Part shown: piece after piece, positions 26,974 through 31,758 of the stretch
Position numbering within the stretch: position 1 is the stretch's first letter
Layout: each line of letters begins with the position of its first letter
From: Erysipelothrix sp. HDW6C
GTDB taxonomy: Bacteria > Bacillota_I > Bacilli_A > Erysipelotrichales > Erysipelotrichaceae
NCBI RefSeq assembly: GCF_011299615.1
Contig: NZ_CP049861.1
Location: forward strand, 1,550,001 to 1,614,000
Direction of reading: 5' to 3'
Length of the DNA: 64,000 nt
Position numbers and translations under genes: made by a program
The notes under the pieces: generated by a model
What the model was told of the DNA's origin: nothing
The model's database searches: none
What the model saw: the letters and a program-made list of their open reading frames with translations, nothing else

Positions 26974-28278
26974 TCACCGCTTTCTGACGAGAATACGGAT
27001 TGGAGTACCCGTGAAATCAAAGGCACGACGCAAGCAATTCTCCAAGTAACGTTTGTATGAGAAGTGGAATAAATCAGGATCACTTACAAAGATTACAAAA
27101 GTTGGAGGCGCAACCGCAACTTGTGATGCATAGAGAACTTTCATACGTTTCCCTGCATGTGATGGCGGTGGCGTCATACGTACTGCATCTTGAATAACTT
27201 CATTCAAAACACTTGTGCTGATACGACGTTGACTGTTTAAATATGCATCTTCGATCATAGGTAACAATGTATGAACACGTTTTTTGGTAAGTGCTGATAC
27301 AAATGCGATGGGTGCATACGGTAAATAGACAAACTCTGCTTCAATTTTCTTTTTAACGTCTTCCATTGCTGTTTCTTCTTTATCGACAGTATCCCATTTG
27401 TTGTAAACAACAATAATTGGCTTCCCAGCTTCATGCGCGAAACCAACAACGTGCTTATCTTGCGCACGGATACCTTTTTCTCCATCAAGGACAAACAATA
27501 CAACATCAGATCGTTCGATTGCACTCATTGCTCTAAGCACTGAATACTTCTCGACATCTTCATATACTTTACCGCGCTTACGAATTCCCGCAGTATCAAT
27601 AACAACATAATCGCGACCATTAAATCGGAACGGTGTATCCACCGCATCCCGTGTAGTTCCCTCAATATCGGAAACGATAACTCGATCTTGATTCAACATC
27701 GAATTTACCAATGAACTTTTCCCAACATTAGGGCGTCCAATGATACAAAATTTTAACTCATCATTATAAAGTGTAATACCCTCTTCTGGCAATTTGCGAA
27801 TAATATCATCCAACAAATCACCAATTCCAATACCATGCAGACTACTTACAGCCTGTGGTTCGTCGTATCCCAATGCATAAAACTCATAAATATCTGATTT
27901 AAACTGAACATCATCTACTTTATTAACTGCAACAATAACTGGTTTATCAGTTTCTCGCAGCAATCGTGCAATATGGTGATCATCTTTTGTGATCCCTTCC
28001 ATAGCGCTAACAACAAAAATAATAACATCGGCCTCATCAATTGCGATTTCAACTTGCATCCCGATCTCATCAGCAAATGCTTGTCCTTCAATTTGAATAC
28101 CACCTGTGTCAATAAAACGTAAATCTTTAGTTAACCATGTTGTTTTTCCGTAAAGACGATCGCGTGTAACGCCCGCTTCTTCGTGAACAATGGAAAGTCG
28201 TTCTCCCATAATACGATTAAACAGGGAAGATTTACCAACATTCGGTCGTCCAACGATTGCAATTACTCCATCAATCAT
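26974..28278 (-). CDS. der: ribosome-biogenesis GTPase Der (EngA)
   Basis: Der has two GTPase domains in tandem and a C-terminal KH-like domain and helps assemble the 50S subunit. Two P-loops with the same sequence, GRPNVGKSS, occur near the N-terminus and near residue 182, each followed by DT(G/A)G and NKxD motifs (NKVDDVQ, NKWDTVD). The C-terminal part has the expected KVLYASQVAVAPPTFVIF. At 434 residues it is full length. The start overlaps cmk by 8 bases. Confidence 0.97.
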   Translation of the reverse strand: MIDGVIAIVGRPNVGKSSLFNRIMGERLSIVHEEAGVTRDRLYGKTTWLTKDLRFIDTGGIQIEGQAFADEIGMQVEIAIDEADVIIFVVSAMEGITKDDHHIARLLRETDKPVIVAVNKVDDVQFKSDIYEFYALGYDEPQAVSSLHGIGIGDLLDDIIRKLPEEGITLYNDELKFCIIGRPNVGKSSLVNSMLNQDRVIVSDIEGTTRDAVDTPFRFNGRDYVVIDTAGIRKRGKVYEDVEKYSVLRAMSAIERSDVVLFVLDGEKGIRAQDKHVVGFAHEAGKPIIVVYNKWDTVDKEETAMEDVKKKIEAEFVYLPYAPIAFVSALTKKRVHTLLPMIEDAYLNSQRRISTSVLNEVIQDAVRMTPPPSHAGKRMKVLYASQVAVAPPTFVIFVSDPDLFHFSYKRYLENCLRRAFDFTGTPIRILVRKR

Positions 28279-28946: not shown

Positions 28947-29861
28947 TTAAAATGGTAGTTGTGAAACAATCAGTACAAGCACAACGAAAATCGCTAAGAA
29001 TAACAGTGATAAAACAACATTTAGGAGTCGATTGGTTCGGACCATCGTGTCGTTCATATCATCAATATTTCGTTCTTGATCAATGATCTTGTGTTGTAGT
29101 GTTTGTGTTTGCTCCATCAATTCTTTCTTAAATTTTTCTGCATCGAAATCAAACTCAAGTCGATCATCCTCTGCACTGACTTCTTCAATAAAAAGTGGTG
29201 CATCATCAAAGATATCTTCATCGATTTCAATCGATTCGTTTTCGGTATCGACATCTCCAAAATCAATACTATCGACGAATGCCATCGGTTGTGTATCTGC
29301 ATCATCAGGCTCATCAACCATTTCTTGAACTGCCATGGCGATGGTTTGATCCAAATCAAGACTTTCATCGAAGTCTCCACGGAGTGCATTCGCATTAAAA
29401 ACACGAGTCTCTCCAAGATCAGTTGATACATCTTCAATATCATGAGCCAAGTCAGGATCAACTTGACCAAGCACAGATTTCATTGCGACTTCATCGACAG
29501 GTTTTACGACATTAGGAGCAATATTAAGTTCACGAATGATATTCGATTGTGTATTCTCTGTCTCACGATATCCTTTTTTTACATTGTACTCCTTGACTTC
29601 ATCTAAGAAATCTTTGAGATATGTATTTTCAAAGGTATCAAATGTTTCAGCCACCTTTTCTTCAACTGGCTCAACTTCATGTTGGCGTGCACGCGTTGGT
29701 TCTTGATTTGAAACAACAGGTTCCTCCATACGTTTAAACTGATCGTCAATTTGATTCAATCGATTCGCAAAATGCGATAAGTTTGAGTTCTGAATGTCAC
29801 TCTCTGCGTTTGAAGCTAAAGATTCATGTAAATCTTGATTTTTCTTGACACGAGATTTCAT
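28947..29861 (-). CDS. unknown acidic tail-anchored membrane protein
   Basis: I recognise no family in this 304-residue protein. It begins with a basic stretch (MKSRVKKNQ), continues as a long, acidic, low-complexity region rich in Asp, Glu, Val and Asn that is likely largely disordered (for example DFGDVDTENESIEIDED), then has a probable coiled coil (FKKELMEQTQTLQHKIIDQE) and ends in one membrane helix (VVLSLLFLAIFVVLVLIVS) with only a few residues after it. The body should therefore face the cytoplasm. AAAGGAG precedes the chosen ATG at 29861. It is the first gene of the cmk-der-gpsA unit with its own promoter. A role in division or envelope scaffolding is a guess from architecture. Confidence 0.65.
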   Translation of the reverse strand: MKSRVKKNQDLHESLASNAESDIQNSNLSHFANRLNQIDDQFKRMEEPVVSNQEPTRARQHEVEPVEEKVAETFDTFENTYLKDFLDEVKEYNVKKGYRETENTQSNIIRELNIAPNVVKPVDEVAMKSVLGQVDPDLAHDIEDVSTDLGETRVFNANALRGDFDESLDLDQTIAMAVQEMVDEPDDADTQPMAFVDSIDFGDVDTENESIEIDEDIFDDAPLFIEEVSAEDDRLEFDFDAEKFKKELMEQTQTLQHKIIDQERNIDDMNDTMVRTNRLLNVVLSLLFLAIFVVLVLIVSQLPF

Positions 29862-29885
29862 TTTAAGTATCACTCCTTTTGATAA

Positions 29886-29894
29886 ATTATAGCA
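29886..29894 (-). promoter_or_regulatory. extended -10 promoter of the tail-anchored protein-cmk-der unit
   Basis: TGCTATAAT on the minus strand lies 25 bases before the start codon; a good -35 is lacking. Confidence 0.6.
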
Positions 29895-30005
29895 CAGTTT
29901 GCAGTTAAATTTACAGTATAATAACGGCACCTATGAATTCTATATCCCCAGCAGTCTAACCTTTAATAGATTATATTAATTTGGCACAAACTGCAATTGT
30001 TTTAA

Positions 30006-30837: not shown

Positions 30838-30864
30838 CAAAAAAACTACAGTTTCCTGTAGTTT
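30838..30864 (-). terminator. terminator after efp
   Basis: AAACTACAG pairs with CTGTAGTTT across a GAAA tetraloop and is followed by a T run on the minus strand. The hairpin includes the efp stop codon. Confidence 0.92.
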
Positions 30865-31420
30865 ATGCACGACCAGAATATTTTCCGTCGTTTGAGTTAA
30901 TAAGAATAACTTCGCCTTCACTAATGAATAATGGAACACGTACTTCATAACCCGTTTCAACAATCGCATTTTTTTGTGCATTTGTTGCAGTATCACCTTT
31001 AACTGCTGGTTCCGCTGTTGTTACAACCAAAGCAATTTTTTCAGGAAGGTTTACACCTAAAATTTCGTTTTCAAATTGAATTACTGTTACATCGGAATTT
31101 TCCTTCATAAAGTTTAATTCCCATTCCAAACGGTCTTTGGCAATTTCAATTTGTTCGTAGGTTTCTGTATCCATAAAGACAACATCATCACCTGCATCAT
31201 AGAGATATTGCATTGGTCGTTTTTCGATGTGAGCTTGATCAACTTTATCCCCACCGGTAAACGATAATTCGGTTACTGATCCTGTGCGCATATTGCGAAC
31301 TTTTGCTTTAATAATCATTTGACGCATCGCAGTTTTATTATGCGATGTATCGATAACTTGGTAAAGGTTCCCTTCAACCAAGATGGACATACCTGAACGT
31401 AGGTCGTTAGATGAAATCAT
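30863..31420 (-). CDS. efp: elongation factor P with altered tip loop
   Basis: EF-P enters the ribosome E site and relieves stalling at polyproline. The three-domain protein of 185 residues is full length, with the domain I KOW-like core (LYQVIDTSH), RNMRTGSVTE and the C-terminal OB signature (YEVRVPLFISEGEVILIN). The loop that touches the P-site tRNA is unusual: where Bacillus has HVKPGKGAA this protein has HNKTAMRQM with the same length, so the modified lysine position is M32 and its neighbours are changed. GGAGG precedes the ATG. The gene starts 2 bases after the comGG stop, so it is probably in the comG transcript. Confidence 0.95.
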   Translation of the reverse strand: MISSNDLRSGMSILVEGNLYQVIDTSHNKTAMRQMIIKAKVRNMRTGSVTELSFTGGDKVDQAHIEKRPMQYLYDAGDDVVFMDTETYEQIEIAKDRLEWELNFMKENSDVTVIQFENEILGVNLPEKIALVVTTAEPAVKGDTATNAQKNAIVETGYEVRVPLFISEGEVILINSNDGKYSGRA

Positions 31421-31422
31421 AA

Positions 31423-31758
31423 TTAATCCTCCATAGTTTTAAGTTTAAAACTGTCGTCTTCCATTATATCATATTCAAGCCAATATGACATATTTCCAAG
31501 AATAGAAACGAAAAGAATATTTTCATACCGGTATGCAATAACGATATTTTGATTAACGACCCATGCATAATATTCACTTCCCAATCGAATTATAGGGAAA
31601 ATACGCGCTTCAATCGCGATTCTCTGGTCAATAACTTTTAATTTTTGCATGTCATGCATGTAACCGTTATATGCAACCAAAACTGCTTGTGTCCACGATA
31701 TAAACGTAATAAAGACGGCTAAAACTGAGAGAAGAATAGTCCCTCTTTTAGAACTCAT
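31423..31758 (-). CDS. comGG: ComGG-like competence pseudopilus protein
   Basis: Assigned by position as the last gene of a comG operon and by architecture. The 111-residue protein has a short basic N-terminus (MSSKRG), one hydrophobic helix TILLSVLAVFITFISW, then a soluble domain with little recognisable conservation, as is usual for ComGG. No prepilin glutamate at the normal +5 position is clear, again as seen for ComGG. It overlaps the upstream ComGF frame by 11 bases and is followed after 2 bases by efp. Confidence 0.65.
   Translation of the reverse strand: MSSKRGTILLSVLAVFITFISWTQAVLVAYNGYMHDMQKLKVIDQRIAIEARIFPIIRLGSEYYAWVVNQNIVIAYRYENILFVSILGNMSYWLEYDIMEDDSFKLKTMED

Follow-up and report, generated by a model that had tools for sequence, protein, structure and literature searches.

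The efp gene of Erysipelothrix sp. HDW6C, which lies in the 64,000-nucleotide stretch of DNA analysed here (the window), encodes an EF-P with methionine at the tip position that is occupied by lysine in Bacillus and E. coli. EF-P assists ribosomes at stretches of consecutive prolines, and in most bacteria its tip lysine is chemically modified. The protein belongs to a well-supported clade of EF-Ps with Met, Arg or Gln tips, and part of the genomes of the order carry a second EF-P with a lysine tip (efpK), directly followed by a dehydrogenase gene and accompanied by a YnbB-family gene. We consider it rather probable that the window-type protein, called native EF-P here, is a working, lineage-specific factor without tip modification, that the lysine was lost once, and that efpK is a separate and probably modified EF-P. 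In the simplest reading, the native EF-P has been freed from tip modification and the lysine version survives as a separable cassette. Why the EF-P tip has to protrude and carry a charge, in most cases on a chemically extended side chain, is not settled. A large lineage without the lysine, in which Met, Gln and Arg tips occur naturally and a lysine-bearing partner is present in some genomes only, offers a ready-made comparison.

The efp gene of the window and its tip loop

The features are listed in Table 1. In a profile search, all three EF-P Pfam domains (KOW-like, OB and C-terminal) scored above cut-off in the window protein, and the bacterial EF-P model TIGR00038 "efp" gave 230.2 bits at a cut-off of 185.8; by score, domains and fold, the protein is a bacterial EF-P. 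An AF2 model of the structure, for which 46 relatives were aligned with the window protein, has a mean pLDDT of 89.6. The top PDB matches of the model are EF-Ps (9a6x with TM 0.95 and 6rk3 with TM 0.91), and the EfpL structure 8s8u gave TM 0.67. As Y181 and R184 are also retained in the alignment, together with D143 and T144, the remainder of the protein is intact, as the preliminary description had stated. A second, canonical efp elsewhere in the genome would have spoken against that description. No second EF-P was found in the 2.36 Mb single-contig genome, which gave one EFP_N match only, in a search that returned a match for 13 of 14 control genomes. Proline runs are still encoded in the window; one of them, TPPPS at 27171, belongs to the ORF 26974-28278, which we take to be the GTPase Der.

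Table 1 Features of the efp region in the window
Feature	Position	Strand	Remarks
efp, EF-P of the non-lysine (NKTA) type	30863..31420	minus	185 aa; only EF-P found in the genome
Asp143-Thr144, domain 3 loop I	30989..30994	minus	equivalent to E. coli D145/T146; retained in the window EF-P
Loop between beta strands 3 and 4, residues 27-35, HNKTAMRQM	31316..31342	minus	from sequence and alignment
Met32 codon	31325..31327	minus	position of Lys32 of Bacillus EF-P and Lys34 of E. coli EF-P
Small ORF ending the comG-like operon	31423..31758	minus	no Pfam match of its own

Residues 27-35 sit between the predicted strands 18-29 and 35-43 of the AF2 model. The alignment to Bacilli EF-Ps is gap-free and places T30, A31, M32 and R33 where these have P30, G31, K32 and G33. 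It thereby bears out the initial reading that Met32 is the tip and that Pro-Gly is absent, and the replacement of HVKPGKGAA by HNKTAMRQM had been given with correct letters and coordinates. A lysine-type EF-P has a tip lysine and a proline two residues before it; the window protein has Met32 and Thr30 instead.

The unusual tip, noticed in one gene, is lineage-wide. Among 112 window-type sequences, a few of which (L077-L080) are probably from outside the order, the tip is Met in 55, Arg in 52, Gln in 5, and never Lys. Two copies of the window sequence (L001 and L032) and two broken copies (L180 of G339 and L181 of G320) were dropped before counting. The loops are NKTAMRQM (42), NKTARAAA (27), NKTARSAM (13), NKQGRLSG (8), NKTAMAKM (7), NKTAQRQM (5) and another five that are less frequent. 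N28 and K29 do not vary at all (112/112); hence, the loop is not the product of chance or of a sequencing error. Although broken copies exist in two relatives (G320 and G339), a decaying gene or an assembly error in the loop is extremely improbable in view of this invariance, the non-lysine tip in every sequence, the full-length ORF, a dN far below dS, and synonymous change at the loop codons. Against five genus members, dN of the window gene is 0.15-0.21, with dS saturated or undefined. In the 42 NKTAMRQM loops, each of R33, T30 and A31 is encoded by four different codons; since these rows were chosen for their common loop, the evidence lies in the codon variation and not in the residue identity.

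The preliminary description offered two ways in which such a loop could function, either without modification or by using K29 or R33. From the sequences, we favour the former, and the conservation pattern argues against the latter. As a replacement modification site, K29 is a poor candidate because it is present in every EF-P class (112/112 window-type sequences, 38/38 efpK, 84/88 others) and is thus about equally conserved where the tip is a lysine. R33 is rejected in the same role as it occurs in only 53/112 window-type sequences. A novel enzyme acting on K29, R33, another loop residue, or R32 in the Arg-tip relatives is improbable on these grounds, even though K29 is invariant in the native type and more than half of bacteria are reported to encode no known modification enzyme (Volkwein 2019, PMC6544042). 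Switching of the tip among Met, Arg and Gln, with four changes, would hardly be tolerable for one dedicated enzyme. The search for EarP gave 0/98 in the order, which also speaks against such an enzyme, but the control genomes gave no EarP match either, and this leaves the proposal some room.

Distribution and phylogeny of non-lysine EF-Ps

Using the window protein as query, we searched 98 genomes of the order and obtained an EF-P match in 93. Of these, 90 have an intact window-type EF-P, two have a broken one (G320 and G339), and one (G223) has the second type only. Five of the 98 genomes gave no EF-P match (G236, G319, G322, G333 and G341). G236 and G319 are not counted as losses because every search across the order, including that for dehydrogenases, came back empty for them; they are rated 98-99% complete and are probably unreadable here rather than without these genes. 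Where the native gene is broken or without match, efpK is present in G320 and G223 but not in G339.

A tree of 246 EF-Ps was calculated with the loop columns removed and 22 near-identical outside rows dropped; it is a quick search without bootstraps. In this tree, the 130 non-lysine rows form one clade (SH-aLRT 98) without any lysine tip inside (68 Met, 57 Arg, 5 Gln, 0 Lys), one of whose rows, L269, is very long. The window EF-P, that of E. urinaevulpis (L062) and those of five same-genus genomes make up a clade of seven. The non-lysine clade covers the order, two Mycoplasma-like families (f5 and f16) and three further families; families f8, f19 and f23 have loops of a similar kind. All five rows of f5 and f16 have Arg tips without proline, and by their in-frame TGA codons and small genomes these two families look Mycoplasma-like. 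Most simply, the lysine would have been lost once, in an ancestor of the order, the two Mycoplasma-like families and the three related families.

On the native EF-P tree, the tip residue changes four times among Met, Arg and Gln. A link between the tip residue and efpK was considered and dropped, as efpK accompanies Arg in 23/52, Met in 13/34 and Gln in 0/4 with no clear pattern. Other loop forms were seen as well. An odd loop, VLQNK-VA, is one residue shorter and lacks PGKG; it is found in L085, L101, L134, L261 and L264, i.e., in one record labelled Acholeplasmatales, two other records and f21 genomes. Further tips in the class are VKSARSAA, VKSANSMA (Asn tip), [ML]KTAK[AS]GA (Lys tip lacking the Pro) and V-PTKRG, in which the loop is shortened (rows L256, L258, L260, L263, L266, L271 and L268).

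A second EF-P with a lysine tip

efpK is present in 38/98 genomes of the order, together with an intact native copy in 36, with a broken one in G320 and with none in G223. An intact native EF-P without efpK is found in 54/98. The efpK loop is VKPGKGAA in 38/38 with invariant KPGKG, and all efpK copies fall into one clade on a long branch of the tree.

A short-chain dehydrogenase gene lies directly downstream of efpK on the same strand in 38/38, starting 2-70 nt past the last aligned efpK residue. None of the other 203 EF-P loci has a downstream dehydrogenase; at least 800 bases of downstream sequence were present at 196 of 200 of these 203 (88/90 native, 29/30 class-level and 79/80 named). Relatives of the dehydrogenase with at least 68% identity occur in exactly the 38 efpK genomes, and the next match has 44% (G303).

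PF06838, the YnbB family, is likewise present in 38/38 efpK genomes. It scores 490-526 bits in all but G329, where the copy is truncated at a contig end. Its distance from efpK is at most 1 kb in 25 genomes and at most 5 kb in 35; in 37, both genes are on one contig. The PDB structure nearest to the PF06838 protein of L149 bears the name "YNBB B.subtilis ortholog". Without efpK, full-length PF06838 was found in one of 60 genomes (G322, in which no EF-P was found); the 59 genomes lacking both include G236 and G319, which had no candidates in any search. The presence of efpK changes 20 times on the best native EF-P tree. Ten independent contrasts lie on supported branches, and the YnbB family tracks all 10 (sign test, p 0.002).

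A search of 392 genomes from the phylum gave close relatives of efpK in 22 order genomes and in G051 (f17). Outside the order, an EF-P, the dehydrogenase and a YnbB-family gene occur together in G051 and in G146 (f20). In two efpK neighbourhoods (L149:690-4539 and L175:990-4431), the dehydrogenase is downstream and the YnbB-family gene is convergent; the upstream gene encodes a PnuC-like transporter in the former and an EamA transporter in the latter.

Modification genes

YnbB is reported to be needed for the 5-aminopentanol modification of Bacillus EF-P. The linkage of efpK to the dehydrogenase and the YnbB family therefore suggests that efpK is the EF-P that undergoes modification; in some relatives, the native EF-P is accompanied by this second, probably modified EF-P. 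In the genus of the window, no full-length YnbB-family gene was found (0/6 genomes; best partial match 29.5 bits in G321), nor efpK and its linked dehydrogenase (0/6). Since the native EF-P occurs in genomes with and without the cassette and the genus lacks it, the native type is independent of that pathway.

In B. subtilis, ynbB, ymfI and gsaB are reported to be required for the 5-aminopentanol modification. The genome of the window does not have this set: its best PF06838 match is 21 bits, and TIGR00713 gave no match. Its best match to the YmfI model is 203 of 238 bits, which does not discriminate because no order genome (0/98) reaches the cut-off. Two efpK-linked dehydrogenases scored 153 and 164 bits on the YmfI model, below the curated cut-off of 238 and below their best FabG models. 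We therefore do not call the dehydrogenase a YmfI ortholog; it is "YmfI-like" by position and fold only.

The full Bacillus pathway does not apply to efpK. YwlG is above cut-off in 3/98 order genomes and in 0/38 efpK genomes, with a weak match of 19.7 bits in G298. GsaB/HemL is above cut-off in 11/98 order genomes, including 3/38 with efpK; the other efpK genomes have weaker matches (21) or none (14). With the dehydrogenase and the PLP enzyme of the YnbB family, the efpK cassette names two candidate enzymes of a modification pathway that may be shorter.

The codon-contact pair in domain 3

D143 and T144 are retained in native copies (110/112 and 112/112, respectively). In E. coli EF-P, D145 and T146 contact the E-site codon (Sieber 2024, PMC11611912). 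efpK has Ala-Pro in place of this pair in 38/38, with a one-residue deletion nearby. The efpK relatives outside the order have GNT (G051) and GAS (G146) at the site.

In two-copy cells, the lysine and the codon-contact pair are on different proteins, which would fit a division of labour. Tentatively, the work of EF-P in Erysipelotrichales-like bacteria may be split such that the native protein contacts the E-site codon and has an unmodified Met, Arg or Gln tip, while efpK would supply an enzyme-extended lysine and lack the codon pair. efpK, the dehydrogenase and the YnbB-family enzyme would then be gained and lost as a unit with a shorter route than in Bacillus, and the genus of the window would be a natural strain without the lysine half.

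Function of the native EF-P

As other EF-Ps do, the window EF-P would bind the empty E site beside the P-site prolyl-tRNA. Its intact domain 3 loop would contact the E-site codon, and the backbone and side chains of the unmodified NKTA(M/R/Q) loop would steady the CCA end of the tRNA in place of the extended lysine. In this way, the Met-tip protein could relieve proline stalls. In relatives with the efpK cassette, a second and probably modified EF-P joins the native protein, whereas Erysipelothrix-like genomes have the native EF-P only.

Published data bear on this in both directions. EfpL of E. coli has an Arg tip that is unmodified by mass spectrometry and active (PMC11611912), and Arg32 of T. 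thermophilus EF-P reaches C75 (PMC2821294). Substitutions of K34 in E. coli EF-P with Ala, Met, Asn or Gln, however, are inactive, as are substitutions of P32 and G33, and in two species, EF-P had an inhibitory effect when unmodified (Volkwein 2019, PMC6544042). These tests used single changes in a lysine-type loop or the EF-P of other species and not a native NKTA loop; for the NKTA type itself, we found no experiments among the open-licence papers in PubMed Central.

The inactivity of Met and Gln tips in E. coli EF-P (PMC6544042) could also mean that relief of proline stalls has been abandoned by the native EF-P in favour of another E-site task, such as acting at certain E-site codons or on the com genes upstream of it, with the stalls left to efpK where it is present and to ABC-F or YebC-type factors elsewhere. 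The retention of the codon-contact pair while the tip changes agrees with this, as do the further stall-relieving factors reported for B. subtilis (PMC11990639) and the occurrence of efpK without a native match in G223 and with a broken native copy in G320. We nevertheless regard such a change of task as rather unlikely, for the native protein is the only EF-P found in 54/98 order genomes, general EF-P features are strongly conserved, and the Uup/YfmR-type C-terminal domain in the genome of the window is weak (27 bits, below cut-off). This sole match lies at G000:C1:1333045-1333233 in a frame of 198 residues. Compensation by ABC-F proteins was also considered across the order and rejected, since matches to the C-terminal domain occur in 95/98 genomes (79 of them above cut-off) and the groups are not told apart by it.

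Comparison with known EF-P systems

Lysine-type EF-P of Bacillus and Staphylococcus (5-aminopentanol at Lys32): The window EF-P is 45-48% identical to the S. aureus structures 6rji and 6rk3 and is alike in its three domains and loop length. It differs in that the tip is Met instead of Lys and Pro-Gly is gone, and its genus has neither a full-length YnbB-family gene nor the efpK-linked dehydrogenase.

EfpL (YeiP) of E. coli: Here, an Arg33 tip works unmodified. EfpL coexists with a modified lysine-type EF-P, and likewise, the native copy coexists with efpK in 36/98 order genomes, whereas the genome of the window has one EF-P alone. The window protein is not an EfpL; TIGR02178 gave 120.6 bits at a cut-off of 264, there is no loop extension and no proline three residues before the tip, and the gap-free loop has the usual length.

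Arg-type EF-P (EarP-rhamnosylated EF-P, Thermus Arg32, and the SKxGR loops of Mycoplasma-like bacteria): These share with the window protein the absence of proline two residues before the tip, and an Arg tip is also found in 52/112 window relatives and in all five rows of f5 and f16. With Met32, the window protein itself lacks the Arg tip of the EarP type.

Met- and Gln-tip EF-Ps in surveys: Met and Gln tips that lack the proline have been recorded before; Arg, Met, Asn and Gln are listed by Bailly 2010 (PMC2821294). Met and Gln account for 0.77% and 0.6% of 1166 EF-P sequences, and two EF-Ps were counted in 29/1137 genomes (Volkwein 2019, PMC6544042). The tip residue of these surveyed sequences is as in the present clade, and it never occurs with P32; in the parts consulted, the surveys give no clade, partner genes or function for them. 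Set against the open-licence literature in PubMed Central, Met and Gln tips are thus known; apparently new are the clade and how deep it reaches, the cassette of efpK, dehydrogenase and YnbB, and the exchange of residues at the codon-contact site.

The native efp locus

Only 2 nt separate the efp start codon from the stop codon of the small ORF upstream, which is the last ORF of a comG-like pseudopilus operon (31418-31425). In this operon, T2SSE and T2SSF are above cut-off, and of two N_methyl matches, one is above and one just below. EF-P may be co-transcribed with the competence genes. A small pilin-like ORF directly precedes efp in many relatives as well.

In many f2 relatives, the next downstream gene begins like MNKQAITFLTLFSLILVLSVYYI or MANIEYYTYKESPINGD. 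These starts recall SpoIIIAH and YqhY to us, presumably neighbours of efp in B. subtilis as well; by this likeness to the B. subtilis neighbourhood, the native copy looks vertically inherited. Further along the window, an ORF on the minus strand (28947-29930, 327 residues) has no Pfam match and shows, by eye, a C-terminal membrane stretch; the ORFs beside it are, we assume, cmk and der.
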